From positions 1 through 56,121 of the IMG/VR virus record IMGVR_UViG_3300037507_003763: a stretch of 56,121 nucleotides of DNA. One strand, 5' to 3'. Every line of letters starts with the position of its first letter. The first letter of the stretch is position 1. The DNA comes from a virus. The notes beneath the pieces were generated by a model that searched no databases, had not been told where the DNA came from, and worked only from the letters and a program-made list of their open reading frames with translations. This document shows, piece by piece, positions 16,751 through 35,448 of this stretch. A program made the translations under genes and the position numbers.

Positions 16751-19306
16751 TTAAAACTCCGCCTTCAGTCGGCGTTGGTTTCTGATCTGTGTTTCAGAAG
16801 TGGTATGAACAATTGGTGAGAATTGAGCATGATACTTTTGATACTCAAGAGCATCAGTAAACTCAATCATTTCACCATCTTCGTTTGGATAGCTCCAAGT
16901 CTTTGCTTGGCGTTCAGTAAGATTAACTTCGCCATTTTCAAAGACCATGACTACCTTGTTGCCAATGCCATAATGAATCAATGCAGATTCAAGATACGGA
17001 TAGACAATTCGGTTCATAACAATCTGATCAGTCACCTTACCATTGCTGGTTGGGTTCTTGATAGATGCAGAATACAACGACAGAATAAAGTCGTATTGAT
17101 CCTGGAGACGCTCGAATGACTCGATCTTTTCGACAATAGAGCCGTAAAGACCTTCCCATTCGTTACGCTTAATACCGTTGGATACTTGAACAACCTCAGA
17201 AGAGTTTGCGTTGAAAATGTTCATTCTGAAGTTACGCAGAGCTGGCAGTGCATGATAATACAAGCGCTGACCAATCTCATGGATAACTTCAAGAGGACGA
17301 ACATTTTCTTGCGAATACTTGATTACTCGTTGAACGTAACGATTGTAATACTCGTTGCATAGTGCATTCAACTGAGTAATCTTGCCTTCATAGGTTTCAA
17401 CCTCAGGATGTTTTGCAGCAAGTGCACGGAAACGACCATGCCAGAAGTCACGATCAATGGGTTTGCCAGAAGCAAGAGCTTCAGCAATCATTACATCGGC
17501 TTCTGAGTCGATAGCCGTACGATCTTCAGGATCGCTCGTTTGAGTGCAACCGTCGATTGCTTTCTCCAACGAACAAAGCTGAACAGGGCGATGTTTAGAT
17601 ATCACCATGGAATGCAGCATAGCAGCATTAACATAGCGACCAACATTACCGCCCTTCATAGCGATCTGCACATCGTGCATCACATCAGCAACGGAATACT
17701 CTTCAGTAACAGGACGAGTCTCATCAACACGATGAGAACCTGGAAGTCCAAGATATGCGACTGAACCAGTTCTAATCGCACTGGAAAGACGCTCTGGCCA
17801 ACCACGACCATTTACTTCTGGAAAAGAAACTTCTTCTCCATTAGCCTTGGTCCAGGTTGGAAACCATTGTCCTTCAACATACTTGAAGATGGAATACTCA
17901 CCAAAACCATTTGGAGAGCGTGCAACGATGACAACTTTCTTGCCATCGAGCGGACCAGATTCCATTGTACGATAAAAAAGTTTGAAGAAGTCGTCTTCAT
18001 CATGACCGCCATGAGATTCATACATCTCAAGCCAGTCAAAGTCATTGACGACATGAACACCAATGTTATTAATACGTTGGATTGTTCCTTCTTCAACATT
18101 CATATCGTAGCCAGCCATACGGGCAAGTGATTCTGGAATCACTTGCTCATAGACTGAACAAGGAATAGGAATACGCTTTTGTAACGGTTTTGCATGTGAG
18201 ACTGCAAGGGTTTCAAAGAGCCATGGGGAATTTGTGATTGAAAGACCCATGCTTACCCAACGATAACCAACATAGCTGATGCGAGACTGTGCTTCGACAT
18301 CTTCAATATCTTGGTTTTCGCGTGAGAAGTTACGCATGAATACGGACTTCCAATCAGTAATCAAATGACCCTGAATGGCTTTATCAAACATTTTATCATA
18401 CTCTTCCTTGAGCCACATTTCCATATCAGACTTACGGAAAAGCTTGGGAAGATTGATAACAGTTTGATCGTCGGTGATAACACGACTCTTTGGACCTTGA
18501 GGCTCAGCCAAAAGACGATAGCCCTTTGTATAAGTGATTTCTTTCTTCAAGTTTTCACGAGAAGAAATAATATCAATACCTTCTGGAAGATCATCTCGAA
18601 CAAACATATTGCCCTTGATGATGCCCTCAGAAGTAAATATACGGGCATTAAAGACTTTTGACTTCAACAAGAAATGAGTAAGTTGCTTACGAACGGTAGG
18701 ATCGTAATAATACTCGTTGGTGTCAAGAGTATTGCCTGGTTCATAGATAGGCAAATTCTTGACTGCTTCTTGGATAAGGCGGTTAGATACTACAAAACCA
18801 CCGTCAAGAAGCCGTGCTTTGGTTGCTGGATCAAGCATCCATCCGCCCCAACCTTCTTCTTCGTTAAACTTGTAACGACTGAAATCGGTTGATTCAACCC
18901 AACGAATATTGAGATCGTCAAAATGGGCATTGATAAGACTTGCGCGATGAAAAGACTTCATACGCTTAGCAGTCTTACCGCCACCTTTGACATGAAATCC
19001 CATGTCGTTCAGGACATTCATCCAGCCATGATTGTCTTGAATAATGGTGCAAACCACCTTATTCTTGTCGACAATGGCGTATTGAACTCTGGGATTAGAA
19101 ATGATCTTCTCAAGATCAGAAAGATCAAATTCGTTGGTTGGGATAGGAAGGGCAGCAACACGATACTCTGGAGAACCAGAGTGCTCTAGAGCGTGGCGAA
19201 GAACGCCAATATCATAGAAACCGAACTGATAATTGTTGTTTGAACGCAACGGACCATTAGCCATTGCTTTCAAACGAACATTAGGTCGGTATGTTTCAAA
19301 TGCCAT
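16751..19306 (-). CDS. Very large phage protein, paralogue of the 869-aa protein
   Basis: Protein of 851 aa, function unknown. It aligns by eye with the 869-aa protein at 32839-35448: IFTSEGIIKGNMFVRDDLPEG matches VLTPSGLIKGNAIIVKDEM; ESHGGHDEDDFF matches ENHGGFDLDDTI; VARSPNGFGEYSIF matches LRNPNDFGEWSVI. The conserved HGGxDxDD acidic cluster could bind metal. The motifs recall catalytic loops of two-barrel RNA polymerases (DxDGD and RxP), but the order and the missing Gly do not fit well. Strong ribosome site AAAGGAGAAAATAA, nearly identical to that of its paralogue, and a strong terminator: expect high expression. Confidence 0.85.
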   Translation of the reverse strand: MAFETYRPNVRLKAMANGPLRSNNNYQFGFYDIGVLRHALEHSGSPEYRVAALPIPTNEFDLSDLEKIISNPRVQYAIVDKNKVVCTIIQDNHGWMNVLNDMGFHVKGGGKTAKRMKSFHRASLINAHFDDLNIRWVESTDFSRYKFNEEEGWGGWMLDPATKARLLDGGFVVSNRLIQEAVKNLPIYEPGNTLDTNEYYYDPTVRKQLTHFLLKSKVFNARIFTSEGIIKGNMFVRDDLPEGIDIISSRENLKKEITYTKGYRLLAEPQGPKSRVITDDQTVINLPKLFRKSDMEMWLKEEYDKMFDKAIQGHLITDWKSVFMRNFSRENQDIEDVEAQSRISYVGYRWVSMGLSITNSPWLFETLAVSHAKPLQKRIPIPCSVYEQVIPESLARMAGYDMNVEEGTIQRINNIGVHVVNDFDWLEMYESHGGHDEDDFFKLFYRTMESGPLDGKKVVIVARSPNGFGEYSIFKYVEGQWFPTWTKANGEEVSFPEVNGRGWPERLSSAIRTGSVAYLGLPGSHRVDETRPVTEEYSVADVMHDVQIAMKGGNVGRYVNAAMLHSMVISKHRPVQLCSLEKAIDGCTQTSDPEDRTAIDSEADVMIAEALASGKPIDRDFWHGRFRALAAKHPEVETYEGKITQLNALCNEYYNRYVQRVIKYSQENVRPLEVIHEIGQRLYYHALPALRNFRMNIFNANSSEVVQVSNGIKRNEWEGLYGSIVEKIESFERLQDQYDFILSLYSASIKNPTSNGKVTDQIVMNRIVYPYLESALIHYGIGNKVVMVFENGEVNLTERQAKTWSYPNEDGEMIEFTDALEYQKYHAQFSPIVHTTSETQIRNQRRLKAEF

Positions 19307-19370
19307 TTATTTTCTCCTTTGCATGGTTTATATTTCCCTTTTTTTCTTTATAAACTATAATTTAGTTTCA

Positions 19371-19455
19371 TGATTCATTCGTGCACGATGGTACTAATCG
19401 GTTGGGCTGATTCAATCATGTACTTTGTTACAATCGCTAGACCTGATTCATTTAA
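19371..19455. repeat. Degenerate 36-37 bp tandem repeats, array 1
   Basis: Three imperfect units with the core GATTCATTC begin at 19371, 19408 and 19444. Two of them continue to a TACTAATC or TGTTACAATC end. The same unit recurs five times at 21071-21244. It lies between the start of the 851-aa gene and the stop of the metalloprotease gene, in a 188-bp gap. Confidence 0.65.
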
Positions 19456-19494
19456 ATTAAAATGGTACTCTTGATAATAAAGATTATTGCAATA

Positions 19495-20841
19495 TTAAGA
19501 AACTGACACAGTAAATGTATCCCATTGGTTCTTAGATGTATAAGTTATAGAAAGATTTTGATAAACAAGAGTTTCTCCAACTTTCATTAACGCATCAAGA
19601 TATGGGGGATTGCCAGGAAATTGAAGGAATGAAGTATTCCTAAGAGGAAGTATCATTCCATCTCCATGGCCATATGTAGTGTCAACTTCATAGACAAGAA
19701 GTCCTTCATCAAGTCTTGCGTCGTCAATATTAAATTGAGTTTCTCTACGAGATTCAATAACAATTGACTTGGTAGAACTTAATGGTATCATGACTACTTT
19801 GATTCCTTCAAAAGAAGATTCATTTGGAGAAATCATAAAAGTAGAATTCTTCATGTTTGATATTTTATTACACCAAACCTGAGAATCATCAACCCATCCT
19901 GCAAGCCATCTTGTCCACATACTTGTTGAACGAGATGGTCCATCTTGATTTGCCATAAGATCCCAGCCATTAAATGGGCCTGGGCTATTTTCCCAACCTG
20001 GTCTTTCAGAAGGAAGCCAAGGTTGTATGTACAAATCAGGAAGAAGAAACATATGCCCTGCTTCGTGTGCCCAATAAGAAAAGTAATCTTTTCCTTGAGC
20101 ATCGAAGTAATTACCAGGAAGCATGTAGTTTAAAATGGATGACTCATTAGTTTGAAATGGGTTTCTTACATTAAGTTTGTAAAAACCCTGTAAACTTACT
20201 CTTATAATTCTTTGATCTTTTGGCAACAGAAATGCAACAGTTTGCACTCCTGTAAAATCAAAGTATGGATCTGCAGCAGCCAAAGCAATGGAAGCAAAGT
20301 TATTGTTTCCATTGGATTCGTGTTGATAATAGGAAGAAGAAATTCCTGGCATTAAAATGCTGGATTCAGAAGTGACCCATTCAAATCTTACTTTACCGCC
20401 AGAGACAGTAAAGTAATAATCTGTGAACTTCTTCATCTGATCACGAACACGAGACAAGGGTTCTTTATCTGCTGGCAAATCAGAGAAATGCAATGGAATC
20501 ATTGCAATTTTATGAACACCAGTAAGAGATAGATTACCAGTGACTACAGGCCAAGCACTAAATATAGAGTTAGGCCAATTGTTACGTTGATAACTTTTGT
20601 CTTCAAGTTTACAATAATCCAAAGAATCAGACTGATTAGTTGGAGGATAATATGTAACTTTAGGTAAAGTAGTAGTGGTAGTATTAGAAATTGATTTTAA
20701 ATTGTTTTTGCATCGCTTTGTTTGCTTCTGTTTCTTTGTTACGCAAACAGGTTTCTTCTCAATATGAGAAGTGTTTGTAAAAGCACCAGAAGAAAAAAGT
20801 AAAGATGCTGATAAAAACAATGATGAAAATATATTAAACAT
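19495..20841 (-). CDS. Secreted M6-type metalloprotease (immune-inhibitor-A-like)
   Basis: Protein of 448 aa. Signal peptide at 1-22 (SSLFLSASLLFSSGAFT). Zinc site HEAGH at residues 259-263, followed by MFLLPDLY, the HExxHxxxxxD context of the M6 family. Preceding segments KIAMIPLHFSDLPA and a YYFTVSGGKVRFEW region also fit M6 proteases. Its role in a phage is unclear; with the subtilisin it is the second secreted protease here. ATG overlaps the upstream stop by 8 bp. Confidence 0.82.
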   Translation of the reverse strand: MFNIFSSLFLSASLLFSSGAFTNTSHIEKKPVCVTKKQKQTKRCKNNLKSISNTTTTTLPKVTYYPPTNQSDSLDYCKLEDKSYQRNNWPNSIFSAWPVVTGNLSLTGVHKIAMIPLHFSDLPADKEPLSRVRDQMKKFTDYYFTVSGGKVRFEWVTSESSILMPGISSSYYQHESNGNNNFASIALAAADPYFDFTGVQTVAFLLPKDQRIIRVSLQGFYKLNVRNPFQTNESSILNYMLPGNYFDAQGKDYFSYWAHEAGHMFLLPDLYIQPWLPSERPGWENSPGPFNGWDLMANQDGPSRSTSMWTRWLAGWVDDSQVWCNKISNMKNSTFMISPNESSFEGIKVVMIPLSSTKSIVIESRRETQFNIDDARLDEGLLVYEVDTTYGHGDGMILPLRNTSFLQFPGNPPYLDALMKVGETLVYQNLSITYTSKNQWDTFTVSVS

Positions 20842-21040
20842 TAGCTAAAAGCCTATTCGATTGTATGGACTTATCAAGACAATCATCACAGATGATGCCA
20901 TTGTAAATGTTGTCTTCAAAGTTAGATGGATAAACAGATTTAATTACAAGATAACTAGCAGCAGCAACAGTGCCTGTTGTTGGTGCATAGTATACAACTG
21001 CCTTTTCACATATAAGACATGGAACAAGGTCTTGAAGCAT
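20834..21040 (-). CDS. Small zinc-ribbon protein
   Basis: Protein of 68 aa with CLIC and CDDC about 40 residues apart, the same general build as the proteins at 8025 and 11268. GGGG before ATG 21040. Coupled to the metalloprotease gene. Confidence 0.65.
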   Translation of the reverse strand: MLQDLVPCLICEKAVVYYAPTTGTVAAASYLVIKSVYPSNFEDNIYNGIICDDCLDKSIQSNRLLANV

Positions 21041-21070
21041 AGGTTATCCCCTTTCAAATTTTTTTTAATA

Positions 21071-21244
21071 TTTCACTCATTGGTTGTGTTACAATTACGG
21101 GTCAATGGTTCATTCATTTTCAATGTTAATATCGCGTGCGGTGATTCATTCATCACATATGTTACATATCATTTCGGTTGATTCATTTCGCTGCCAAGGT
21201 ACACTGTACTGGGTTGATTCATTCGTCCACTCTGTTACAATCAG
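21071..21244. repeat. Degenerate 36-37 bp tandem repeats, array 2
   Basis: Five units. Cores aligned on TTCATT fall at 21076 (CTCATT), 21109, 21145, 21182 and 21218, a spacing of 33, 36, 37 and 36 bp. Best unit: GGTTGATTCATTCG followed by about 10 bp and TGTTACAATC. The best unit also resembles a plus-strand promoter (TTGATT, 16 bp, TACAAT) although no plus-strand gene follows. Possible operator or iteron array. Confidence 0.65.
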
Positions 21245-21254
21245 TGACGATGAT

Positions 21255-21476
21255 TTAAATAGCTCTGTTTTCAAGAATAAGTGAAAACAAAGCGTAAGTG
21301 CTATAAAGCTGAACAGCTACAAGCAAAGAAGCAGTAGCAACAGCTCCAGTAGCAACTAACAAACCAAATGATTGGAATAAAACAACGCTTTCTACAGCCC
21401 ATGCGGAGATGAGCCAGAAAGAACGTGTTTCTTTACGGGTAAAAAAGTTTTTTACTTTAGATAATAGTTTACGCAT
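21255..21476 (-). CDS. Small membrane protein
   Basis: Protein of 73 aa: basic N-terminus (MRKLLSKVKNFFTRKETR) and two hydrophobic helices (AWAVESVVLFQSFGLLVA, AVATASLLVAVQLYSTYALF). AAAGG before ATG 21476. Not recognised. Confidence 0.65.
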   Translation of the reverse strand: MRKLLSKVKNFFTRKETRSFWLISAWAVESVVLFQSFGLLVATGAVATASLLVAVQLYSTYALFSLILENRAI

Positions 21477-21536
21477 AATGCCTTTCCATAATTATAAAAG
21501 TGCGTTGGTAAACCAGTCGCACCCCTGGTGTGAGTA

Positions 21537-21824
21537 TTACTTTCGGTCAAGGTAACCGACAACGGTATTGAGCACGTTGGTAAGACCAACGACTGCAAGA
21601 CCTGTGCCGACAACATCAACCCACTGATCACCGTTTCCAATACCGTAAGTAGCAAGAACCGAAGTATCGGTCAGCCAAACGATAAGGATGGTGAGGGCAA
21701 TGAACAGATTGTCTCCCTTACCGATGACCGGGATACGGCCAACGACAGGAAGATTGTCAATGACAAGGTTAGTTACCTGAGCGGCAACAAACCCAATGAA
21801 CATTGCAAGTGCAAGGGTATACAT
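21537..21824 (-). CDS. Small membrane protein
   Basis: Protein of 95 aa with three hydrophobic segments (LALAMFIGFVAAQVTNLVI, NLFIALTILIVWLTD, VVGTGLAVVGLTNVL). Codons are more GC-rich than neighbours (AAG, GTC, ACC), as in other presumably abundant proteins of this block. AAGGAG before ATG. A holin role is possible given the transglycosylase gene nearby but unproven. Confidence 0.68.
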   Translation of the reverse strand: MYTLALAMFIGFVAAQVTNLVIDNLPVVGRIPVIGKGDNLFIALTILIVWLTDTSVLATYGIGNGDQWVDVVGTGLAVVGLTNVLNTVVGYLDRK

Positions 21825-21908
21825 GATGTATTTCTCCTTATTATTGTTGTTATTATGTTGTGTGGATTATGTTATTTCTTTAACGTAGGAGCCACGCTAC
21901 GCTAAACC

Positions 21909-22775
21909 TTATGACAATGGTGTATAGTTTGGAACATCAATCTGATGGACATGGTCCATGTGTGCAATCGTGTAGGGCGTAGGCGCCTTACGATTAAAAT
22001 GAGTTTCAAACCATACAGTGTGAAAGTGCGACAAGAAAATCTTGACAGCAAATCGTCTTGCTTGAGCATCAATCTGTGCAGCAGGGAGCTTTCCAGATTT
22101 GAGTGTATCGCTAGACTTGTTTGCTTTCCAATTCTTGGTAGTCAAAATTTCTTTAGCCCTATCAGCATAAGCGCCTGATTCGTTGAGTTCAACTCGGCGC
22201 TGTTTGTCTTGTAGGTAAAGCTTACCATAGAAGCACTGGTCACGACCAGAGAACTTCATAAAGCTTTGACCAATTTTCCAAGACAATACTTTAAGTTCAG
22301 CATTGAATGGACGCTTGCTGCCTTTTTCCCACTTCATTGTGGGATCAAGACCAGCATAACGCCAAACTGAACCTGCAGTAGAAGCTTTCTCAATATCAAT
22401 ATGAGCAATCAAGCCAGCAGTGATGACTGGCCCGATGCCATATTGTGACAAAGCCCATTGTCCAACAGGATACGATTCGGCAAACACTTTGAGAGGATTC
22501 TTCAAAGAGTTTTCCATGTAGTTGAGTTGATCAGAAAGATATTCAACAAGCTCATGAGGAGAACCAGCAGACTGTAGTTCTCGAGCTTGTGCAGCTAAAG
22601 CAATTCTATCTTCTTGAATACGATAGTATGTAGAGACCAACTCTTTTACAGAGCTTTTATCGAAGTTCACCGCAAGAGACCGAACATCTTTTCGCATTTT
22701 ATCCCAAAGTGGGAATTGGTGGATGTTGGTAGTATCTTCTGGTGAAAGATCGAAATCAACAGAATTTTCATTCAT
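21909..22775 (-). CDS. IS110/IS116 C-terminal-like helix-hairpin-helix protein
   Basis: Protein of 288 aa. Near the middle it has SQYGIGPVITAGLIAHID, then SVWRYAGLDPTMKW, which matches the transposase-20 domain of IS110 elements (GIGPxxAxxLxAxIxD...AAYAGLxP). After it come helices with FYGKLYLQDKQR. The N-terminal RuvC-like DEDD domain of real IS110 transposases is absent and there are no element ends, so it is more likely a phage-domesticated DNA-binding protein than a mobile element. Confidence 0.65.
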   Translation of the reverse strand: MNENSVDFDLSPEDTTNIHQFPLWDKMRKDVRSLAVNFDKSSVKELVSTYYRIQEDRIALAAQARELQSAGSPHELVEYLSDQLNYMENSLKNPLKVFAESYPVGQWALSQYGIGPVITAGLIAHIDIEKASTAGSVWRYAGLDPTMKWEKGSKRPFNAELKVLSWKIGQSFMKFSGRDQCFYGKLYLQDKQRRVELNESGAYADRAKEILTTKNWKANKSSDTLKSGKLPAAQIDAQARRFAVKIFLSHFHTVWFETHFNRKAPTPYTIAHMDHVHQIDVPNYTPLS

Positions 22776-22816
22776 GATATAAAATTATCCTTTATGATTT
22801 AGGTGATTAAATGTGA

Positions 22817-23245
22817 TTATTTCTTGATCTTACGATATATTTTACGAGGAATCCAAATTGGAGCTGTGATAGTTCTGCCAGTAAACCAGCCGATCTTCAC
22901 AAGATCTCCGCCAAGTTCTTTGGCTTTTTCATACTTTGGTTTAGCTTGCGCTTTAGCGTGGGCATAGCGATTGCCACCGACAGACTGAGCTTTAGGTGTG
23001 TCATAATTCCAATTAAGGAATGCATAACCAGGAATGGTCATGAAGGTAGACACAAAACCAGCAGTCATGGCAATCAAGCCCTGAGCACCAAATGCAATAC
23101 CAATAATGTATGAGAGGAACATGGAGTTAATAAGATTAAAGAGTTTACTCTTATGACTCCATTGTCTCCAAAGCGGAACTTGAGCAGCGATCATTAGCTC
23201 CAAAGCAGTTGACGCTATTGCAAGCAATAATACCATAGTTAGCAT
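22817..23245 (-). CDS. Membrane protein
   Basis: Protein of 142 aa with about three membrane helices (MVLLLAIASTALELMIAA, FLSYIIGIAFGAQGLIAM, FVSTFMTIPGYAFL) and a basic C-terminal tail (PRKIYRKIKK). TAGGAG before ATG 23245. Not recognised; the small helix number and basic tail are seen in holins and in anchoring proteins. Confidence 0.65.
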   Translation of the reverse strand: MLTMVLLLAIASTALELMIAAQVPLWRQWSHKSKLFNLINSMFLSYIIGIAFGAQGLIAMTAGFVSTFMTIPGYAFLNWNYDTPKAQSVGGNRYAHAKAQAKPKYEKAKELGGDLVKIGWFTGRTITAPIWIPRKIYRKIKK

Positions 23246-23310
23246 TGTATTAGTCTCCTATGTAGATAAATCTTGGTGTATATTTTGAATGAACTTTTTT
23301 AGAAAAGTTG

Positions 23311-23796
23311 TTATTCTGCTTGAACCCATTCAAGCTTGCCAGTGTCTGGATTTTTACAAGGTTCATATTGCACGATATCATCTTCAAAATATGGTGATCT
23401 TTTGAAGTGATAAGAATACATGCAACAAGGAACTTCATCCATACAAGGATGATGGGCCATGGATCCTGGGTTAATGATACCAACAGCACGAGCAAGATGT
23501 GGGAAGGTGTCAAAAAGTCTTATGCAACAGTTGTGGCAGAACCAGGCATTGTTGTGAGATTCGGATTCTTTGACATCTTCTTCAGTGACAGAATAACCGT
23601 CAAAGAATGAAGGATGAGTGTAATCTGTGAATCCGCCGTAGTATCCGGCGAATCCAGTGAGATGCAACCCATTATCAGGACCATTGCCACATGTTTCAAC
23701 TGGAGTTAGCCTGCCGCAAGCAGTACAGTGAAGTTCACTTTTAAAGTAAACTTTGTTCTTCTCCAATTGCTTATATGGATAGATCTTCATCTTCAT
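23311..23796 (-). CDS. Zinc-binding hypothetical protein
   Basis: Protein of 161 aa starting MKMKIYPYKQLEKNK at 23796; the frame is open further but overlaps the upstream gene. CTAC, CHNC and a CxxxxxCC pattern near the end (HPCMDEVPCCMY) suggest zinc binding. A Gly/Tyr-rich loop (GFAGYYGGFTDY) is present. Not recognised. Confidence 0.6.
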   Translation of the reverse strand: MKMKIYPYKQLEKNKVYFKSELHCTACGRLTPVETCGNGPDNGLHLTGFAGYYGGFTDYTHPSFFDGYSVTEEDVKESESHNNAWFCHNCCIRLFDTFPHLARAVGIINPGSMAHHPCMDEVPCCMYSYHFKRSPYFEDDIVQYEPCKNPDTGKLEWVQAE

Positions 23797-24070: not shown

Positions 24071-24102
24071 CCCTTCTTTTTTGAATGAACTAAAAAAGAA
24101 GT
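24071..24102. repeat. Inverted-repeat element with GAATGAA core, copy 1
   Basis: TTCTTTTTT and AAAAAAGAA flank GAATGAACT. A near copy (TTTTTTGAATGAATTAAAAAAGAAG) is at 28283-28308 and a partial copy near 23286-23306. Each lies in a gap before a minus-strand gene. The minus-strand reading contains AAAAAAGAAGGG, a word that recurs upstream of other genes. Confidence 0.5.
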
Positions 24103-24608: not shown

Positions 24609-25232
24609 TTAATCGTTAACATTCTTGGGTTTCTTGCAACGGGAGGGGTCCCAATTGCAAGCGTTCCAAGGTTGCCATCCTGCAGCCTCAAACAGTGCAC
24701 GACCTACTTTTAGGTTGTTGAGAGGATCAAGGAGTGGTTCTTGGGAACAGAAGCCAAATTTAACGCAAGCAATTGCGTTCTTGTTTCTGCTCAAGTCCCA
24801 GTTAACACCGTTGATCTGCAACAGACCTGAGTCGGACTTGTTTGTTGCTTTAGTGTATCCAGTGATGTTGCAATTCTTGTCAACGATTGAACTGCCGATG
24901 CGGTTTGGACAACCGCCAGATTCTCTGAGGATAATCCTACCAAGTCGTTTCCAAGTGTGCTCTGGCCATCCTGCTTGAGCTGCCAAGGCAGGAAGCCAGG
25001 ATATGTCACCATGCTTGTATTGAATAGTTCTGTGATCAAATTTAGGATCAGCGTTCGTAATACTGCGCTTATCAGCCAAATCTGCAGAATTATTCAAATA
25101 AAGAGCTTTAGCCTCTTGGGAAGGAAAAGTCTTATCATCAGGGCCTTTAAAGGCGTGGACATATTGAACACTGACCCAAAGGGTACAGTATACAATGAGG
25201 GTATTAATAAATAGCTTTTTAATTGTGTGCAT
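24609..25232 (-). CDS. Secreted lysozyme/lytic transglycosylase-like protein
   Basis: Protein of 207 aa from ATG 25232 (an upstream ATG at 25283 gives a 17-residue extension). The start MHTIKKLFINTLIVYCTLW is a signal peptide or anchor. The catalytic domain shows RIILRESGG (probable catalytic Glu) and SDSGLLQINGVNW, the standard SLT transglycosylase/lysozyme motifs. Several Cys residues (CPN, CNITG, CVKFGFC, CNWDPSRC) could form disulfides outside the cell. Likely cuts peptidoglycan during lysis or entry. Confidence 0.82.
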   Translation of the reverse strand: MHTIKKLFINTLIVYCTLWVSVQYVHAFKGPDDKTFPSQEAKALYLNNSADLADKRSITNADPKFDHRTIQYKHGDISWLPALAAQAGWPEHTWKRLGRIILRESGGCPNRIGSSIVDKNCNITGYTKATNKSDSGLLQINGVNWDLSRNKNAIACVKFGFCSQEPLLDPLNNLKVGRALFEAAGWQPWNACNWDPSRCKKPKNVND

Positions 25233-25452
25233 TGGTTGCTCACTTTCGTCTTTGTTTGCTAAGCCGTGTATAGAACTTAACATTAGTATGGCGCTAATGA
25301 GAAACCGAAGATTGTGAGGACTTACGATGCCCTAACGATTGGCAGTGATAGCCATCTCCGACTTCCTAGATACTAAACAGTATCTTCGTATTTCTTTGAT
25401 TCCTATTTTCTGCCCGCGTCAACGGGCATTACATGTATTAATCATTACTTCT

Positions 25453-26956: not shown

Positions 26957-27172
26957 TTAGACCCGAAGGTCTTGAATTTTGTAGGAACTATCTTTTTCTA
27001 GCTCAATGATCATTTGTTCGCAATAGTGTAGTAGATCACGTATCATGAGTTTATCGCTATTGGTAACCGTTATGTCTTCTAAGAGTTCTTTATAGTGTTT
27101 ATATTGATTAGCCAGCGCTTCGTGGAGGATAGATCGAGATGTCGTATTGTTAAAAGGGTTTAAGCTCAACAC
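26957..27172 (-). CDS. Small helical protein, probable GTG start
   Basis: About 71 aa. The open frame allows TTG at 27199, but GTG at 27172 has AGGAG six bases upstream and is preferred. Helical with LHEALANQYKHYKELLED. Not recognised. Confidence 0.55.
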   Translation of the reverse strand: MLSLNPFNNTTSRSILHEALANQYKHYKELLEDITVTNSDKLMIRDLLHYCEQMIIELEKDSSYKIQDLRV

Positions 27173-28089: not shown

Positions 28090-28282
28090 CGCTCGTATTT
28101 CTCCTTCTGTGTGTTTGTTTGTCTGACTGCATACATGTTAGCACATGGCTGCAGCAAACACAACCTCACAGCGGAAAATATTTGAGCGGATAACACGCCT
28201 CATAAATTCGGCGGTTCCCGCTCTAAATTAAAAAAAGTTAGTTACTTCTGTATAGAGAGATAACATAGAGAGTTATTATTAT

Positions 28283-28308
28283 TTTTTGAATGAATTAAAA
28301 AAGAAGTT
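28283..28308. repeat. GAATGAA element, copy 2
   Basis: TTTTTTGAATGAATTAAAAAAGAAG, nearly identical to 24079-24102, again next to a terminator hairpin. The rest of the gap 28090-28363 has an inverted pair GAGCGG/CCGCTC and no gene. Confidence 0.5.
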
Positions 28309-28350: not shown

Positions 28351-28363
28351 GCTACTGTTTGAT

Positions 28364-29368
28364 TCAGAAGGGGTCTTCCAAATTCGCGTCAGCAGATGCC
28401 GACACTGGTCCGTTGGCCTGAGCCGAGTTTGACCAAAGGTCACAGGCTACATCGCTTCCATTCACCGACAAGGTGAAACGACCACAAGGGGCGTTTACTG
28501 GATCGTAGATGTCCTGCTTTTCTTTGGCACCCGACGGGGTGACGGTGATGCGCTGCTGGCTGCCAGCCCAGTTGGAAACCCATTGACGGGAAAGCTGCAT
28601 GAGCTTATCCTTCTTCTCTTGGGCATCCTTGATCTTGGCTTGTGGCAGATCAGCCATCTTGGTCTCGATGATGTTTGCCTGCAGGCGCAGAGCAGTGACA
28701 CGCTGATAGGTATCAAATGCCGCGTCGACCAAGTTGATGAAACCTTGGTTTGTGCGGGACTTGCTACGGTCAGTGGTGCCAAGCTCGAAAGCCGTTACAG
28801 GAACACCAGTCTTGTGCTGATAGGCAGCAACGATGCGACCTGGGTTCTCAATGCGACCCGTGACATCGACTGCACCAGCAGCCTTGAAGGCGTTGATGGC
28901 GTGCTTGAAGCCGTCTTCGTTTGCACCGAACTGGTGGAAGAACAACGGCATACCGTTGGTGAAGTTCAAGCCAAGGCCAGCCAAGTGCTGGAGTTCGAAC
29001 TTGTCACGGTCAACCGTCTTGCCACCTTCAGTGACGAACTTGTAAAGCAAGTCTGTGATGGACATTTCCTGACCATCCAAAGTGACGCTAAGGTCGAGCT
29101 TGACAGGGTTCATCACACCAGTAACAAGGTAGTATTCCTTGCCAGTGTACGGTGACTTCTGACGAAGAACCGAGATGCGGCTGAGGCTTGCTTCACGCAG
29201 CGTGACCGAGGAGGGGATTTCCACTCCGTTGATCGAGCCCTTGAAGTTGACCTTCTTGTTGACACCGAGCATTTGAGTCCGTGCGGTGGACTGCAGATTG
29301 TCGATGTTGTCTGCAATCTGGTCGAACAAGTTCGTATCCAGATTGAATTTGCTGATGGTAGTTGCCAT
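28364..29368 (-). CDS. Probable abundant single-stranded-DNA-binding-like protein
   Basis: Protein of 334 aa. The last residues ANLEDPF look like the acidic-Pro-Phe tip of SSB proteins that recruits partner enzymes. The N-terminal two thirds do not show a clear OB fold by eye. Codon use (CGT, AAG, GAC, CTC) is far GC-richer than most neighbours, as expected for a very highly expressed gene or a recent arrival. It has its own strong terminator. The genome needs an SSB and none else is visible here. Function is inference. Confidence 0.5.
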   Translation of the reverse strand: MATTISKFNLDTNLFDQIADNIDNLQSTARTQMLGVNKKVNFKGSINGVEIPSSVTLREASLSRISVLRQKSPYTGKEYYLVTGVMNPVKLDLSVTLDGQEMSITDLLYKFVTEGGKTVDRDKFELQHLAGLGLNFTNGMPLFFHQFGANEDGFKHAINAFKAAGAVDVTGRIENPGRIVAAYQHKTGVPVTAFELGTTDRSKSRTNQGFINLVDAAFDTYQRVTALRLQANIIETKMADLPQAKIKDAQEKKDKLMQLSRQWVSNWAGSQQRITVTPSGAKEKQDIYDPVNAPCGRFTLSVNGSDVACDLWSNSAQANGPVSASADANLEDPF

Positions 29369-29419
29369 GGTATACTTTCTGTGTGATATTGTGAATAAGG
29401 GTGATTACTTTGATTTTGG

Positions 29420-29431
29420 ACGGATGTCCGT
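29420..29431. promoter_or_regulatory. Short inverted repeat upstream of the SSB-like gene
   Basis: ACGGA-TG-TCCGT, perfect. Position 50 bp before ATG 29368 and 23 bp past the previous stop fits an operator or small attenuator hairpin. Confidence 0.4.
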
Positions 29432-29453
29432 TATTTTATACGAACCGTAGAGA

Positions 29454-29630
29454 TTAGATCTCTGGAACGGTTGGCGTATCCTGAGGCTTCTCAGCGTTGA
29501 GACCTTCTACGAAGGCATCCTTGAGATCCTTAGTCTTTTCTACGGTCTTCTTCGGTGCGCTTTTGACGACCTTGAAGGTTGTGCCAGTGAACTTGCCAAG
29601 TCCACGGACTGCTTTGTCCATGATTGCCAT
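29454..29630 (-). CDS. Small basic protein, GC-rich codons
   Basis: Protein of 58 aa: Lys-rich helix (VVKSAPKKTVEKTKDLKDAF) and a Pro/Thr tail (PQDTPTVPEI). AAGGAGAAAACAC before ATG 29630. GC-rich codons like the SSB-like gene next to it, so probably abundant and co-expressed. Not recognised. Confidence 0.7.
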   Translation of the reverse strand: MAIMDKAVRGLGKFTGTTFKVVKSAPKKTVEKTKDLKDAFVEGLNAEKPQDTPTVPEI

Positions 29631-29684
29631 GTGTTTTCTCCTTGTTGTTTATTATGGTGTTTGATATTCGATATGTAAAAAAAT

Positions 29685-29759
29685 TTATTCTACATAATTG
29701 TCGCTTGGGAAGAGAACTTGAAGAATCTCTTCTATCATGTCGAAGAACCAGTCAAGCAT
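29685..29759 (-). CDS. Amphipathic microprotein (24 aa)
   Basis: MLDWFFDMIEEILQVLFPSD then NYVE. AGGGGGTGACAA before the ATG is a strong ribosome site. One amphipathic helix; it may bind the membrane surface. Confidence 0.45.
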   Translation of the reverse strand: MLDWFFDMIEEILQVLFPSDNYVE

Positions 29760-29841
29760 TTGTCACCCCCTATCCCTTCTTTTTTGTGTAAACCATAGTG
29801 GTTTGGGTCGGGATGAGTGAGATGACAAATGCCGCTGGTGA

Positions 29842-29988
29842 TCAACGATCAACCCAGTAACCATCTCTCCCAGCTGGGTGATTGGCGTAGGATGATCCAC
29901 GCTTGAAGTTATTTTGCTCTTTAACATAAATGTAAAGAGTTGCCATAACTGAATAGCTTGTTACGAATCCGAGGAGGAACTGTAACAT
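29842..29988 (-). CDS. Membrane microprotein (48 aa)
   Basis: MLQFLLGFVTSYSVMATLYIYV forms a membrane helix, followed by a polar tail with RDGYWVDR. AGGTAGGTAATAA precedes ATG, 3 bp after the stop of another microprotein. Confidence 0.55.
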   Translation of the reverse strand: MLQFLLGFVTSYSVMATLYIYVKEQNNFKRGSSYANHPAGRDGYWVDR

Positions 29989-29991
29989 TTA

Positions 29992-30075
29992 TTACCTACC
30001 TTTCCTGTAGATGAACCCACCTACAAAGAATGCTAGAGTTGTGATGATGATACCAATTGTTGTTTTCTTTCTCAT
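29992..30075 (-). CDS. Membrane microprotein (27 aa)
   Basis: MRKKTTIGIIITTLAFFVGG then FIYRKGR: a helix with basic ends. The ATG overlaps the upstream stop (ATGA), which strongly supports translation. Confidence 0.6.
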   Translation of the reverse strand: MRKKTTIGIIITTLAFFVGGFIYRKGR

Positions 30076-30404
30076 GAGTAGAGGTATTCCTTTTTCTCTT
30101 GAGCTTCGCGCCCATCCATGAGAACTTCAACAGCCAGGTACTGCTCAAGCACGATTTGCTTTGCTTGATTGAAATCAATGCAAGGGATCGTGAAGTGATG
30201 ATGGTCTGATGAATCACCAGTTGGAGATTGGATACCGAACTCAATCCATGCGGCAAGCTCTACTTCATTTTCAAGCCGGCGATATGCATTGTAGGAAGTG
30301 ATCCAGCCTTTGGGCATGGAGCGTCCATCTGTTCGGTATGCCATGAAGCCGTAGCACTCTGACTGGTCAGTCTTGTGCTGGTGCAGTTCAAGTTTGAACA
30401 ACAT
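30072..30404 (-). CDS. Hypothetical protein
   Basis: Protein of 110 aa. Segments GFMAYRTDGRSMPKGW and DHHHFTIPCIDFNQAKQIV. GGAG before ATG 30404. Sits in a tight string of overlapping genes. Not recognised. Confidence 0.68.
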   Translation of the reverse strand: MLFKLELHQHKTDQSECYGFMAYRTDGRSMPKGWITSYNAYRRLENEVELAAWIEFGIQSPTGDSSDHHHFTIPCIDFNQAKQIVLEQYLAVEVLMDGREAQEKKEYLYS

Positions 30405-30544
30405 TACTTATTCTCCTTCTTCTTGGATTGACTGCGTGGGTTGTGAACTCCAGGATTGTCTTTACGACGCTGTGAACGCCGTGCATTCTTTTCCTTGAGT
30501 CGGGTGGATTCATTCCACCACTTTGTGTTTTCAGGCGATGCCAT
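30404..30544 (-). CDS. Small very basic protein (46 aa)
   Basis: MASPENTKWWNESTRLKEKN then RSQRRKDNPG and a KKKENK end. AAGGAGAAAAGCA before the ATG and a TAATG overlap with the next gene mark this frame, not the longer overlapping frame, as real. Likely nucleic-acid binding. Confidence 0.65.
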   Translation of the reverse strand: MASPENTKWWNESTRLKEKNARRSQRRKDNPGVHNPRSQSKKKENK

Positions 30545-30662
30545 TGCTTTTCTCCTTGTCGTTGGTTAGAAACCAGCCGGCAATAAGAGTGATCCCCATT
30601 ATAATGAGGCTCCATATTGCTTGGGCTGTCATGATTGCTCTTACTGTTTTACCGAATGACAT
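30531..30662 (-). CDS. Membrane microprotein (43 aa)
   Basis: One membrane helix (WSLIIMGITLIAGWFL) with basic N-terminal and polar C-terminal ends. Start overlaps upstream stop (TAATG) and its tail overlaps the next gene by 14 bp, which contains that gene's ribosome site. Confidence 0.6.
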   Translation of the reverse strand: MSFGKTVRAIMTAQAIWSLIIMGITLIAGWFLTNDKEKSNGIA

Positions 30663-30871
30663 TACTTTCCCCTTTTGAAGTTGTCAATTATTGATAGGAA
30701 CTTTTCATCCATCTCCACATCGTATGGATACATGTTTTCTCGTACCATAGGTTTAGAAGAGATGATTTGAATTTGAACTTCTTGATTTCTGATTAACTTT
30801 GCCGTGAGCTTGGAACCAATTAAAGTACCAAGCCAGAAGGCAAATGGAATTGCGGTGATGAGCCAAAACAC
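30662..30871 (-). CDS. Membrane-anchored small protein, GTG start
   Basis: Protein of 69 aa starting at GTG 30871 with AGGAG seven bases upstream. N-terminal helix FWLITAIPFAFWLGTLIG, then a basic/polar domain. Not recognised. Confidence 0.62.
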   Translation of the reverse strand: MFWLITAIPFAFWLGTLIGSKLTAKLIRNQEVQIQIISSKPMVRENMYPYDVEMDEKFLSIIDNFKRGK

Positions 30872-31071
30872 TACTTGTTCTCCTTTAGCTTGTCTTCTAG
30901 GACTGTGATTCGTGCGATGATGTTCTTCAATTGAAGAGCAATCTCATCGTTCATTGTGGTTTGTGCGTGATTGATGTCGGACTGATCGTGCAAGATTTCA
31001 GTGATCTTTCCGATTGTGGTGCTGATGAGCTTGAAGTTTTTGGCTGCAAGCTGTGTGGGTGTTTCTTCCAT
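30871..31071 (-). CDS. Small coiled-coil protein
   Basis: Protein of 66 aa with heptads (FKLISTTIGKITEILHD; LQLKNIIARITVLEDKLKE). AAGGGAGATAGCAATC before ATG. Perhaps a partner of the anchored protein that follows it. Confidence 0.65.
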   Translation of the reverse strand: MEETPTQLAAKNFKLISTTIGKITEILHDQSDINHAQTTMNDEIALQLKNIIARITVLEDKLKENK

Positions 31072-31380
31072 GATTGCTATCTCCCTTTGGGTTTGTGGTT
31101 TTCTAATTGAAATAAAAAAATTATAATAACATTACTACCCCTTCTTTTCAAGGCTAGGGTAGAGTCGCGCAAGCAACCACTCTCACAACGACCCTACCCT
31201 AGCATATCCAATTGGGGATAGCAGAACTGGTGCCCTGTTATCAACTTTGCTACGGCTGGGCAAACCGATAGTGTTTTTAGGTGTTGACTACCCACCTAGC
31301 TATAGCTAGGATCTGTAGCGTCACAAGATCACGTATTGATCCCAACCTAATGATTGGGTACTTCTCTTGCGCGCAACATC
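31072..31380. other. Structured non-coding gap
   Basis: 309 bp without a gene but with much symmetry: a 15-bp near-perfect inverted repeat (31153-31167 with 31189-31203), a perfect 16-base palindrome CCTAGCTATAGCTAGG (31295-31310), and a CCCAA/TTGGG hairpin near 31345-31362. Candidate non-coding RNA or regulatory region. Confidence 0.5.
31123..31151 (-). promoter_or_regulatory. Promoter of the microprotein operon
   Basis: Minus strand TTGAAA, 17 bp, TATTAT. The start point would be about 45 nt before ATG 31071. The word AAAAGAAGGGG fills the start of the spacer, as at other minus promoters here. Confidence 0.55.
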
Positions 31381-31704
31381 TTATGACTTGCTCTTGTCAA
31401 TGATGGTGTCAATGGCAATGAGCTCAGCCAAGTGTTCGCGTGCCTTAGTGTCGAACTCACCTTCGGTCATTTGGAACAGCCATTCTGCAGCTCTTGGGAC
31501 TCTGTTGAATCCCTTGAAGATTTGCACATAGGTGCTGTCGTTGTCTGTAAGGTTGTACTGCACTGTGACACGCAAGGCCATCCTCTTGTGAAGTTGACCG
31601 TTTTGTTCGATATCACCTGCTTCTACAGTGAAGTGTCCACCGGTGAAATCAATGATGCAAACGTACTTGAAGGTATCCAGTAGGATACGGTTGGTGAATG
31701 ACAT
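31381..31704 (-). CDS. Hypothetical protein
   Basis: Protein of 107 aa starting MSFTNRILLDTFKYV; the frame is open a little further but the next gene ends there. Beta-rich (HFTVEAGDIEQNGQLH; MALRVTVQYNL) with a helical end. GC-richer codons. Not recognised. Confidence 0.68.
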   Translation of the reverse strand: MSFTNRILLDTFKYVCIIDFTGGHFTVEAGDIEQNGQLHKRMALRVTVQYNLTDNDSTYVQIFKGFNRVPRAAEWLFQMTEGEFDTKAREHLAELIAIDTIIDKSKS

Positions 31705-31721
31705 TACGAGACTCCAGTCTA

Positions 31722-31892
31722 TTAGCAATCTGTCCGGTGATTGTCTTCGTAGTACGATCCAACAGCCATTGCTGACTCTAGTGTTGGGCCGGACGTTAAC
31801 ATCACCAATTCTAGTTTTGCTCTTGACTGCTCGTGCAGCTCAAAAGCTTTATCTAGAAGATTGCGGAGGTGAATTACATTTCTTTCTGGCAT
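31722..31892 (-). CDS. Small helical protein (56 aa)
   Basis: MPERNVIHLRNLLDKAFEL then a helix ending YYEDNHRTDC. Contains one CGG (31734-31736) read as Arg. AGGGAGTAATC before the ATG. Not recognised. Confidence 0.6.
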   Translation of the reverse strand: MPERNVIHLRNLLDKAFELHEQSRAKLELVMLTSGPTLESAMAVGSYYEDNHRTDC

Positions 31893-31913
31893 GATTACTC
31901 CCTTGTTGGTTGA

Positions 31914-31942
31914 TAATTATTACTAGAACCCTTCTTTTCCAA
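31914..31942 (-). promoter_or_regulatory. Promoter before the 56-aa gene
   Basis: Minus strand TTGGAA, 17 bp, TAATTA, with AAAGAAGGG inside the spacer as at 31123-31151. Ends 22 bp before ATG 31892. Confidence 0.45.
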
Positions 31943-32143
31943 GTTCTGTTCGTGTTTCTAGAAGAAAGGGGGAGAACCCCGCGTACCGAGTCCACAACCA
32001 CAAACTGGGCGTGGGGTGCGGGGCGTAGCCCTGCGCAGGATGCGAACCCCCAAGGGGGTGAGCAGCCTGCAGAAAAAGGGGGGAATCGGTGAGTCCCGCC
32101 CGTCCAATAAAGGAACGAACGAGACCCACCGAATCGGGGGACT
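31943..32143. other. GC-rich non-coding stretch
   Basis: Around 200 bp, much richer in G and C than its surroundings, with two G/C hairpins (GGGG-AGAA-CCCC near 31968-31980 and CCCCC-AA-GGGGG near 32048-32059). No gene with a ribosome site found on either strand. Probably terminator plus leader of neighbouring genes. Confidence 0.4.
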
Positions 32144-32563
32144 TCAGAACGCTTCGTCAGCGCTCATGTCAGTCGAGGCGATGGCCTTGGCGTCCACACG
32201 AGAGGCGTAGACACGGGCTTCCTCGGTGACACTGAACTCCGCAGTCGGAACTGGGTCCGAAGCAGGAGCGTCAACTGTCACCTTCCCACCGAGGAACACC
32301 TGTCGCTTTGGAACCTTGAGTTCCGTCACAACACCGTCCTTGGTGTAGGTCGTCTCGACTTTCGATGCCCGCGACACGACTTCAGCCGAAATGACTGAGC
32401 CAGCACGAACATGCGAGGCGATTTGGTTGGGCAGCCAGCACCACTCACGGACACCATTGGAATCCTTGAGCAGATTGACTGCAGTGGCCTTGGGACCAGC
32501 ACCACCGATGCCAGCCACTACGAGTTTGACGGTCGTAGTCACCGCGTTGAGCATTTCGCTCAT
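32144..32563 (-). CDS. GC-rich abundant-type protein, unknown
   Basis: Protein of 139 aa. GC-rich codons like the SSB-like gene. Starts MSEMLNAVTTTVKLVVAGIG and has a beta-rich core. The end STDMSADEAF is acidic with a terminal Phe, similar in style to the LEDPF end of the 334-aa protein. GGGGG before the ATG. Function unknown; may be a replication-associated protein. Confidence 0.68.
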   Translation of the reverse strand: MSEMLNAVTTTVKLVVAGIGGAGPKATAVNLLKDSNGVREWCWLPNQIASHVRAGSVISAEVVSRASKVETTYTKDGVVTELKVPKRQVFLGGKVTVDAPASDPVPTAEFSVTEEARVYASRVDAKAIASTDMSADEAF

Positions 32564-32773
32564 ACCAATACCCCCTTAGGTAAGGTAGTAGTTGTGGGAT
32601 GGCGGGATTGCCAACCCTTCTTTTCCAAGTCAAATTGACATGGAAACCTGACCGTCAGCGACGAATCGCTTATAATATGGGGGACGGTGAGCGCCCCAAA
32701 CCTTTCTTTTCCCGCTGAAACAAGTTTATTTTGTATAAACCGTTTAGAAGCCAGCACATCAGCAAGGGAATCA

Positions 32774-32787
32774 GAGTTCTAGAACTC
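32774..32787. repeat. 14-bp perfect palindrome in a 275-bp gap
   Basis: GAGTTCTAGAACTC. Followed by two small hairpins (AGACTT/AAGTCT; CACTT/AAGTG) up to the stop of the 869-aa gene; together they may form its terminator. The rest of 32564-32838 holds AAAAGAAGGG words and no gene. Confidence 0.45.
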
Positions 32788-32838
32788 CAAAGACTTTTGT
32801 TTAGAAGTCTAAATACACTTCTTTACTATAAAAGTGAA

Positions 32839-35448
32839 TCATCCAATTCGCTTGTATGCACGGACTACCCAGTCCATTGGGAGTTGATCGAGGTTTGCGT
32901 TTACAACAAACAGCCACTTGTCCCAGTTAGCTTGTGGCTTAACCCGCTTCATTGCGAATGCGTGAGCCCACAACCTGAGGATCTTGCGGTCTGTGTATTC
33001 TTCTCCTTTGTTGATATCTGACTCAATCAGCTTACCGACAAAGAACTCAGCCCAAGAAGCTATAGTGCCTGTGCTTGTAATGGCATTATACTGTGCCAAG
33101 AGCTTGTTGAACTCTTCTGCACTACTATCCATTTCTTCTTTAGTGAACTGGACAGTGGTCAGTTTGCTTGGCATGTACGGGGTATTGCACCACTTCAAGA
33201 GCTCTGAGTACTTAGCCCTGATCATTTCTTCCCTCACATGGAGGAATTCCACAAGCAGAGGTGACTCATCGTTCTTTAGTGTGAAGTGCTGGAACCCACC
33301 AGTTATATTGATCTTCTTAGGAATTCTTGTCGTAGACCAGTACGAGTCAATCCAAATTGGATCTGCATTTGGATCCTCATGAGATACGCTCAAGAACTGA
33401 GAAATGTTCTCATAGATATCCTTTGAGGCTTCCCTGATCTCGTACGCATCTTCCATGGTGATCATGCACTGTTGGACTGCGTCAATCAACTTCTCGTTTG
33501 ATACCAGTTGGTTGCCAAGGTACGTGCCCAAGATGGCATAGTAAATGATCTTCGGCAATACGGTTGCACCAGTGCCACCAGGCAAACTCATAGATGCAGT
33601 ACGGTTCCTCTTCTCGTCTTCTGGGCTATATACATCTGCAAGCCTTATTGCTGATGCACCTGGCATTTCTTCATACTTATACTGGATCATGTTGCTAGCC
33701 AGTAGGTTGCTTAGCTGAGGAACTTTATTATTAAGCTCTTCCCAACTTACTGAAGGAACTTCACCATATACATGGTAGCAGTTCTTGATTTCCTTTGGAG
33801 AAACAGGAATCACACTCCACTCACCGAAGTCATTAGGGTTCCTGAGCAAGAACGCACAGAGAGTCTTTTGACCATCTTCGGTGTAAAAGTCACGGATCAT
33901 GACATTGATGGTGTCATCCAGGTCAAATCCACCATGGTTCTCATAGTTGGCAATAAAGAATTCACTTGGCACCACAAAGCAGTGACTTTCTTCGTGGTAG
34001 AATCCTTCATAGCTCTTGTTCTTGAACTTGAAGCCAAACAGCTCAAGGGCTTTCTTGGTCATAATGTGTGCACGGAATCCGTAAGGCACTGGCATCCAGG
34101 CACCGTTGTCTTGCTTGAATGCAAACTTGTTGGCCACAGGTTGAGATAGTGGATCAACAACTCCGTACATCATTGCAAAGCTATTGGCCTTGAGGTACAT
34201 CAGTAGTTGACTTGATTCAATTGAAAGACCAATCTCTTCAAGTTTGTCTACCAATTGGTCAATCCTCTTCAGGGTAGACCTGGTGTTCTTGTCGTTGCTA
34301 TCAGCCTCAGAGTTTTGTATGACTTGCTTCAACCAGTCGTTTGGATCACCGTTGATCATCTTGTCAACTTGATCATCAGTGCTGGACTTCAATGTGCTTA
34401 GCAAGAGGTCCTTGTCGATTATGCCTGCCACCTTATGGTAGATTGCCAAAGTAAGGTCATCAGTCTTAAGCGGTAGACGTCCATAGCTTGGCTCAATTGT
34501 TGTCCAATACCAACCATTAGTCTTTAGTTCAGGCTTGATGTTTGGAGTGAACGTCTTGATGTCGTAACCATTGATCATTTCATCCTTGACAATGATCGCA
34601 TTGCCTTTGATCAATCCGCTCGGAGTCAACACCCTGAGGCTGACAACAGTAGTTTTCCCACTCTTGACATCCTTGATCTTGGCATCAATCCATTCCCTGG
34701 ATGCATGTTTGTTATTTTCAAACAGCTTAATCGCAAAGGAACGACTGATCGCACTGATACCATCGACTTCTTTATCATCAATCCCAAGATCTGTTGGGTT
34801 CACGATATCAATGTTCAGTGTTTCTGCATACATATACGCAGCCGTCTGCCTGACCAACTCTTGAAGTCTCTTGGCCATTTTCTTGCTGTTTCCAACAGTC
34901 AGACCAATCTTGTTGAGACTATCAAGCCAGCCAGTGTTGCCTAGCACTCTGAGCACAAAGTGGAAGTCAGAAGTACTCCACCTGATAGCTACATTGTCTT
35001 TCATTGGGTTCTCAGATGGATCATAAGCCTCAGCCCCCATCTTTGTCTTCTTGAACAAAGGATGGATTTCAACTCGATACTTGGTATCACCAAAGAAGTG
35101 ATCCAGGAATGGGAATGAGTATGCGCCAGACGGATACTCTTTGTAGTCAGAGCTGCTCCTATCCCTTTCCGGTGCTTGTGTATTCGTGATTACACGGATG
35201 CTACTCCGCGGACCACTTGTCTTGTAGTGTATCTGTTTGCTTATAGTTTCCACCGCATCACCTCCTGTGGTTGTTTGTGGAATTGGTTTTGGGTTCTCAT
35301 TCATGGATGGCTCCTCCTGTGGAATTGATGTTCTAATCTTGCCTGACTTGCCTTCAGCCCTAAGCTGATTTGCAATTTCTATACTGCTCTCTGCCTGAAC
35401 TTCGAACCACATATCGGTTCCGTTCAGCTTGACGTAGTATGTTTTCAT
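32839..35448 (-). CDS. Very large phage protein, paralogue of the 851-aa protein
   Basis: Protein of 869 aa, function unknown. Shares with the protein at 16751-19306 the blocks VLTPSGLIKGNAIIVKDE, ENHGGFDLDDTIN and LRNPNDFGEWSVIPV, in the same order and at similar spacing, so the two are ancient duplicates. An acidic cluster DLDD preceded by HGG may bind Mg. Divergence is high outside these blocks. Ribosome site AAAGGAGAAAATAAA as in its paralogue. GC-richer codons than the late genes. I considered a two-barrel RNA polymerase relationship and could not support it. Confidence 0.85.
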   Translation of the reverse strand: MKTYYVKLNGTDMWFEVQAESSIEIANQLRAEGKSGKIRTSIPQEEPSMNENPKPIPQTTTGGDAVETISKQIHYKTSGPRSSIRVITNTQAPERDRSSSDYKEYPSGAYSFPFLDHFFGDTKYRVEIHPLFKKTKMGAEAYDPSENPMKDNVAIRWSTSDFHFVLRVLGNTGWLDSLNKIGLTVGNSKKMAKRLQELVRQTAAYMYAETLNIDIVNPTDLGIDDKEVDGISAISRSFAIKLFENNKHASREWIDAKIKDVKSGKTTVVSLRVLTPSGLIKGNAIIVKDEMINGYDIKTFTPNIKPELKTNGWYWTTIEPSYGRLPLKTDDLTLAIYHKVAGIIDKDLLLSTLKSSTDDQVDKMINGDPNDWLKQVIQNSEADSNDKNTRSTLKRIDQLVDKLEEIGLSIESSQLLMYLKANSFAMMYGVVDPLSQPVANKFAFKQDNGAWMPVPYGFRAHIMTKKALELFGFKFKNKSYEGFYHEESHCFVVPSEFFIANYENHGGFDLDDTINVMIRDFYTEDGQKTLCAFLLRNPNDFGEWSVIPVSPKEIKNCYHVYGEVPSVSWEELNNKVPQLSNLLASNMIQYKYEEMPGASAIRLADVYSPEDEKRNRTASMSLPGGTGATVLPKIIYYAILGTYLGNQLVSNEKLIDAVQQCMITMEDAYEIREASKDIYENISQFLSVSHEDPNADPIWIDSYWSTTRIPKKINITGGFQHFTLKNDESPLLVEFLHVREEMIRAKYSELLKWCNTPYMPSKLTTVQFTKEEMDSSAEEFNKLLAQYNAITSTGTIASWAEFFVGKLIESDINKGEEYTDRKILRLWAHAFAMKRVKPQANWDKWLFVVNANLDQLPMDWVVRAYKRIG

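Follow-up and report, generated by a model that had tools for sequence, protein, structure and literature searches.

The genes A and B of the viral DNA analysed here (a 56-kb IMG/VR virus record, called the window in the following) very probably encode jumbo-phage RNA polymerases, paralogous to each other and of the single-chain two-barrel type, most likely non-virion, DNA-dependent enzymes that transcribe the phage genome. All cellular transcriptases belong to the two-barrel RNA polymerases. The assignment of A and B to this superfamily rests on predicted structure and active-site residues, since neither protein has a sequence-level match to known polymerases. The first-pass annotation had suggested a new phage enzyme family that possibly polymerises nucleic acids. 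The predicted fold and the active-site blocks fit this suggestion, with the family being new and the superfamily known, and we infer the activity from them.

Both reading frames were present on the minus strand at the annotated positions, each with an ATG start: gene A at 16751..19306 (851 aa) and gene B at 32839..35448 (869 aa). The proteins had been called giant, for which sizes of this order are too small; they are large. In a BLASTP comparison A and B were 24% identical over 628 aa (E 4e-25), and a profile-profile comparison gave an E value of 5e-32 with a probability of 99.9%, which places their paralogy well above chance. The three blocks IKGN, HGGxDxDD, and R[NS]PNxFGE are common to both proteins and occur in the order described before. 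Residues 1-66 of B (window 35251-35448) form a β-α domain of ~40 aa (MKTYYVKLNGTDMWFEVQ...) followed by a disordered linker. This N-terminal domain, which is also found in the B protein of genome G006 and is missing from most other B orthologues, is a swappable domain.

No true match for A or B was found in Pfam, PHROGs, NCBIfam or PDB-sequence profiles. This includes the absence of a Pfam match to RNA polymerase β/β′ and, for the cellular RNA-dependent RNA polymerase family, of any Pfam RdRP match or PDB RdRP chain detected by profile. Neither a tblastn search of the INPHARED phages with A and B nor the A alignment scanned against GTDB genome contigs gave a relative, so that no host or provirus emerged. 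Relatives were present in IMG/VR, with 31 A loci and 30 B loci on contigs of up to 268 kb. These contig sizes indicate a jumbo-phage lineage, and the window most likely covers just part of such a genome. One 268-kb genome, G014, carries two A-type genes (G014:C1:1858-4062 and 210220-212769), the second of which has the sequence HGGCDGDD. In UniProt, A0A6J5NTF7 of an uncultured Caudovirales phage is an A orthologue with 82% identity and a TM score of 0.97, and A0A6J5M9G6, likewise from an uncultured Caudovirales phage, matches at 18% identity with a Foldseek E value of 5e-38. Both entries are labelled just "Uncharacterized protein," and the A/B family is not covered by a model in Pfam, PHROGs or NCBIfam.

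Structure prediction and fold search, which had been recommended for both proteins, led to a single fold class, the single-chain two-barrel (double-psi β-barrel [DPBB]) RNA polymerases. The AlphaFold models were calculated with orthologue alignments from IMG/VR of 21 rows for A (pLDDT 84.3, pTM 0.81) and 19 rows for B (pLDDT 81.6, pTM 0.75), and both contain two DPBBs in one chain with the overall fold of QDE-1 and gp64. In Foldseek searches against the PDB, the A model matched QDE-1 (E 3.1e-9) and the P23-45-type gp64 (E 4.5e-6), with all else at 0.15 or above. The B model matched QDE-1 (3.4e-8 to 3.0e-6) and then crAss gp66 (0.016), with all else at 0.09 or above. VIA-align gave Z scores for A of 12.2 with RDR2 (570 residues), 10.2 with QDE-1, 9.6 with gp64, 7.2 with gp96, and 5.4 with gp66, and for B of 12.0 with RDR2 (577 residues), 9.8 with gp64, 9.7 with QDE-1, and 5.7 with gp66. 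The full-length matches of both models (560-600 residues) were two-barrel RNA polymerases only, and most of the next-ranked matches were lone DPBBs (formate dehydrogenase, the p97 N-domain, designed DPBBs) aligned to the first barrel. A match to a non-enzymatic virion protein, which would have spoken against an enzyme, did not appear. As A and B were predicted separately and reached the same fold class, an accidental match is unlikely.

In QDE-1 the first barrel carries the invariant lysines K743 and K767, which are 24 residues apart, and the second barrel carries D1007, D1009, and D1011 (PMC1750930). The catalytic loop of A, HGGHDEDD (residues 432-439; 17990..18013, minus strand), provides three catalytic-type aspartates, D436, D438, and D439, in the barrel equivalent to DPBB-A, and that of B, HGGFDLDD (residues 505-512; 33913..33936, minus strand), provides D509, D511, and D512. 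The basic residues come from the other barrel, DPBB-B: K231 of the IKGN block and K254 of NLKKE in A (18545..18616, minus strand; spacing 23), and K281 of LIKGN and K305 of NIKPE in B (34534..34608, minus strand; spacing 24). These lysines are invariant in the respective alignments. The aspartates do not vary among 21 A and 19 B sequences, so that the loss of the cluster in homologues, named earlier as a possible objection, was not seen in any aligned orthologue. Even with the sister group B′ (described below) included, at about 20% identity, the patterns K, K-x-E, D-x-D, and R-x-P-N persist, the invariant positions including residues K231, K254, E256, D436, D438, D439, R463, P465, and N466 of A. 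The blocks shared by A and B stand at the positions of the active site in two-barrel polymerases; judged by order, spacing, and fold or secondary structure in the models, their Asp and Lys residues would overlay those of QDE-1. After the catalytic barrel follows a conserved helical segment, GGNVG..VNA..H in A and GG.G..VLPK in B, a possible bridge-helix or trigger-loop element.

The superfamily is defined in published descriptions by the metal-binding motif DxDxD, which is taken to be a fixed signature (PMC10770324; PMC7824862). This strict spacing was not found in A, in B, or in a third paralogue, C (see below), all of which have DxDD: the motif reads HGG[HMP]D[EQA]DD in every aligned A sequence and GGxD[LE]DD in every aligned B sequence. 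As the strict DxDxD test failed, we class A and B as variant rather than standard two-barrel polymerases. Some relatives contain at the position of B a diverged homologue, B′, with the canonical LHDxxD[QS]DGD (nine distinct B′ sequences), and it is in this sister clade only that DxDGD occurs. Profile comparison of B with B′ gave an E value of 3e-34, with DLD-D pairing with DQDGD, and that of A with B′ gave 1.4e-19. From the alignments, either A and B may have shed one glycine from the standard motif or B′ may have regained one; the divergence among A, B, B′, and C is too great for a trustworthy tree root.

Whether DxDD enzymes are active is the main doubt about our explanation. It is conceivable that A, B, or both have kept the two-barrel fold and lost catalysis, serving as a transcription regulator or as an accessory subunit of an RNA polymerase complex, and the change from DxDxD to DxDD in A and B, whereas B′ keeps DxDGD, is what such a loss might look like. 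Dead enzymes usually lose catalytic residues, however, and in A and B all three aspartates and both lysines are invariant in every aligned sequence despite wide divergence, which is our reason to argue for activity. C has the same DxDD, and every tabulated record has two such genes, which indicates that neither is freely lost. We consider inactive proteins unlikely on these grounds and favor active polymerases. If active, DxDD would shorten by one residue a signature that is otherwise taken to define the two-barrel polymerases. Three paralogous groups that have the three aspartates minus the spacer, with a sister group retaining the spacer at the same locus, represent a natural experiment on variation of the catalytic center. 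Since signature searches look for DxDxD, similar enzymes have probably been missed.

The third paralogue was found by a whole-genome search of relatives and comprises about 1,250-2,070 aa in its longer reading frames with the pattern KG..GGFDLDD..RQP. Profile comparison relates it to B (E 2.4e-8) and, with less significance, to A (E 4.9e-5, probability 68%). C is absent from the 56-kb window, and 14 out of 18 records contain it. At least 108 IMG/VR stretches with C came from a scan that was seeded on, and thus biased to, GGFDLDD. In genome G010, C (G010:C1:185906-189973, locus L051) lies on the TerL strand within the tail gene block, and TerL (140 kb), portal (147 kb), major head protein (152 kb), tail sheath (172-175 kb; two genes), and C (186-190 kb) follow each other on one strand. 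C is thus encoded in the virion gene block of this genome, where it adjoins a giant lysin-containing protein. The C-terminal module (GPPLLPGGSAYE) forms a separate 387-aa ORF in G010 (190002-191162), and C of G002 and G014 has a similar module fused to it. No transmembrane segments were found in C at a strict hydropathy threshold. Two C frames were broken, G027:C1:164814-168891 by a TAA and a frame change and G001:C1:126627-128807 by a TGA, possibly due to assembly errors, split genes, or introns. C is a candidate virion polymerase that is likely injected.

All 13 tabulated records have B or B′ 9-14 kb ahead of A, with both genes on one strand; wherever TerL was located, it was on the other strand. 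In the window TerL lies at 49630-51507 on the plus strand, its closest named phages being Moorella phage MTATph1 (37%) and Bacillus phage KLEB27-3 (33%). The shared position of A and B outside the late virion block, on the strand that does not carry the packaging gene, makes it most likely that they are non-virion proteins.

Comparison of the regions upstream of A across relatives revealed a common, conserved, non-sigma70 motif, TAGTTYATWCAAAAARRA (also given as TAGTTYATWCAAAA), which on the A/B strand recurs ~30 nt ahead of start codons throughout the lineage (loci L005-L090). With the TAGTTYATWCAAAAARRA matrix and the loci of 14 relatives, 26 intergenic sites were obtained, each no more than 90 nt from the start codon downstream of it; 25 lie on the strand of A, 8 of the 26 are training sites, and 12 column-permuted controls gave 0-2 sites. 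In the window, the copy upstream of A (TAGTTTATAAAGAAAAAA) is located at 19340..19357, and further promoter-like copies are located at 23279-23296, 24075-24092, 26973-26990, 28280-28297, and 32725-32742, all on the minus strand. A blind search for motifs within the window had at first landed on terminator-like G-rich stems rather than a promoter motif and was discarded. A sigma-70 promoter scan of the region was near background (48 versus 39.3 expected, standard deviation 5.6). TAGTTYATWCAAAA is a candidate cognate promoter, and a promoter-like motif on the A/B strand is as expected for a phage with its own polymerase.

The lineage resembles a phage transcription cascade of three polymerases with a candidate promoter. 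In this cascade, C, from the tail gene block, would be injected with the virion and start transcription, and A and B would be made after infection and may read different promoter classes, each polymerase recognizing its own promoters. The three aspartates of A and B would bind the catalytic Mg2+, the lysines would hold the primer end and the incoming NTP, and RNA would be synthesized in a template-directed manner, most likely on phage DNA. The full scheme, in which three active paralogous polymerases (two non-virion, one virion) share DxDD and an altered but working metal-binding geometry and use TAGTTYATWCAAAA as a dedicated non-sigma promoter, is one that we regard as somewhat more likely than not. 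A and B might instead be polymerases that do not transcribe phage DNA, either RNA-dependent RNA polymerases like RDR2 and QDE-1 or a primase of phage replication. The eukaryotic RDR2 and QDE-1 are the top structural matches by Z score, QDE-1 works on both RNA and DNA templates (PMC2950127), and helicase and RecA genes lie within the same window. The phage relatives of the fold that have been tested (YonO, PMC5467207; gp64 and gp96, PMC10770324) are nevertheless DNA-dependent RNA polymerases, and two to three paralogues, one of them in the virion block, together with a promoter-like motif fit a transcription cascade better; we regard this alternative as quite improbable. That A and B are non-enzymatic virion or tail proteins with an accidental or structural resemblance in HGGxDxDD, a reading favored by the homologue C in the tail block, is highly improbable, as polymerases are the only full-length matches of either fold, both genes lie on the opposite strand outside the late block, and the conserved residues are those of an active site.

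Among known systems, that of Thermus phage P23-45 is close to A and B; in this phage gp64 is the non-virion RNA polymerase and gp96 a virion RNA polymerase fused to the tail tape (PMC10770324). Common to both are the single-chain two-barrel fold, the Asp cluster, and duplicated RNA polymerases in one phage, one of them associated with virion or tail genes. Gp64 and gp96 differ from A and B in having DYDGD and DFDGD, respectively, instead of DxDD, the A/B lineage has three paralogues rather than two, and the hosts and types of genome are different. B′ was also compared directly with gp64 by profile and showed no detectable similarity, as is expected at such divergence with one template sequence. 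QDE-1 and RDR2 (7y7t, 2j7n, 7w84, 7eu1) are cell-encoded RNA-dependent RNA polymerases of gene silencing in fungi and plants, to which A and B would be distantly related. They provided the best fold matches over 560-600 residues, and in QDE-1, as in A and B, two lysines precede three aspartates, with spacings of 24 (QDE-1), 23 (A), and 24 (B). Unlike these enzymes, which show the D1007/D1009/D1011 spacing, A and B have DxDD, share about 10% identity with them, and are phage encoded and presumably DNA templated.

YonO of the SP-β prophage is a phage-type single-chain RNA polymerase (PMC5467207), and YonO-like proteins have also been named for 0305phi8-36 and c-st (PMC7824862). By description only, A and B are like YonO in being single-chain two-barrel proteins of about 100 kDa with few recognizable residues beyond the active site, and unlike it in that YonO has the catalytic Asp triad of the cellular type. 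Acinetobacter phage ME3, a TerL relative of the lineage, is annotated with TerL homology to 0305phi8-36, so a link is possible. A search of the named phages nearest by TerL (Moorella MTATph1, Bacillus KLEB27-3, and Acinetobacter ME3) for counterparts of the B′ profile and of C gave none, which at the low sensitivity of this search shows little. The crAss-like virion RNA polymerase phi14:2 gp66 (6vr4) is also a two-barrel single chain (Z 5.4 with A and 5.7 with B), but it is much larger (2166 residues), is packaged in the virion, and is a weaker structural match. Jumbo phages like PhiKZ and AR9 (PMC7598289) likewise have separate virion and non-virion RNA polymerases. Theirs are split into β/β′-like subunits close to cellular RNA polymerase, whereas A and B carry both barrels in one chain of 851 or 869 aa, as in the QDE-1/gp64 type.

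The near-identical ribosome sites reported for the two genes are in fact identical over 15 nt (AAAGGAGAAAATAAA; 19306..19320 for A and 35449..35463 for B, both minus strand), and with up to two mismatches this sequence has five matches in the window versus 0.59 expected. Strong terminators had been attributed to both genes. This is correct for A, which has an intrinsic terminator directly downstream of its 3′ end (16710..16740, minus strand; -29 kcal/mol, z -4.7). For B the strong terminator is located directly upstream (35502..35543, minus strand; -31 kcal/mol, z -5.8), where it ends the preceding transcription unit, and the 3′ end of B has no clear one. A 24-nt repeat, GTAACANNGTNNAYGAWTGAATCA, also occurs twice in the upstream region of A, at a distance of 37 nt (19371..19431, minus strand). 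In total, five copies occur in two intergenic regions, this one and 21106-21238 (minus strand), with 0.06 expected by chance, and an array resembling the GTAACANNGTNNAYGAWTGAATCA repeats is found upstream of A in L005 and L006. These repeats may be operator or iteron-like.

Of the neighboring genes, the 334-aa ORF at 28364-29368 had been described as SSB-like, which found no support in Pfam, PHROGs or NCBIfam. For the transglycosylase-like ORF at 24609-25283 a weak lysozyme-like match (E 0.04) was obtained and nothing stronger. The gene adjoining A (19495-20841, minus strand) encodes an M6-type metalloprotease (TIGR03296, E 4e-16, below the cut-off), and a subtilase gene is located at 11805-13331 on the minus strand. 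On the plus strand, eight overlapping 124-nt copies with 33-nt spacing (54854-55208) form an array with an 11-aa period inside the ORF 54533-55423.
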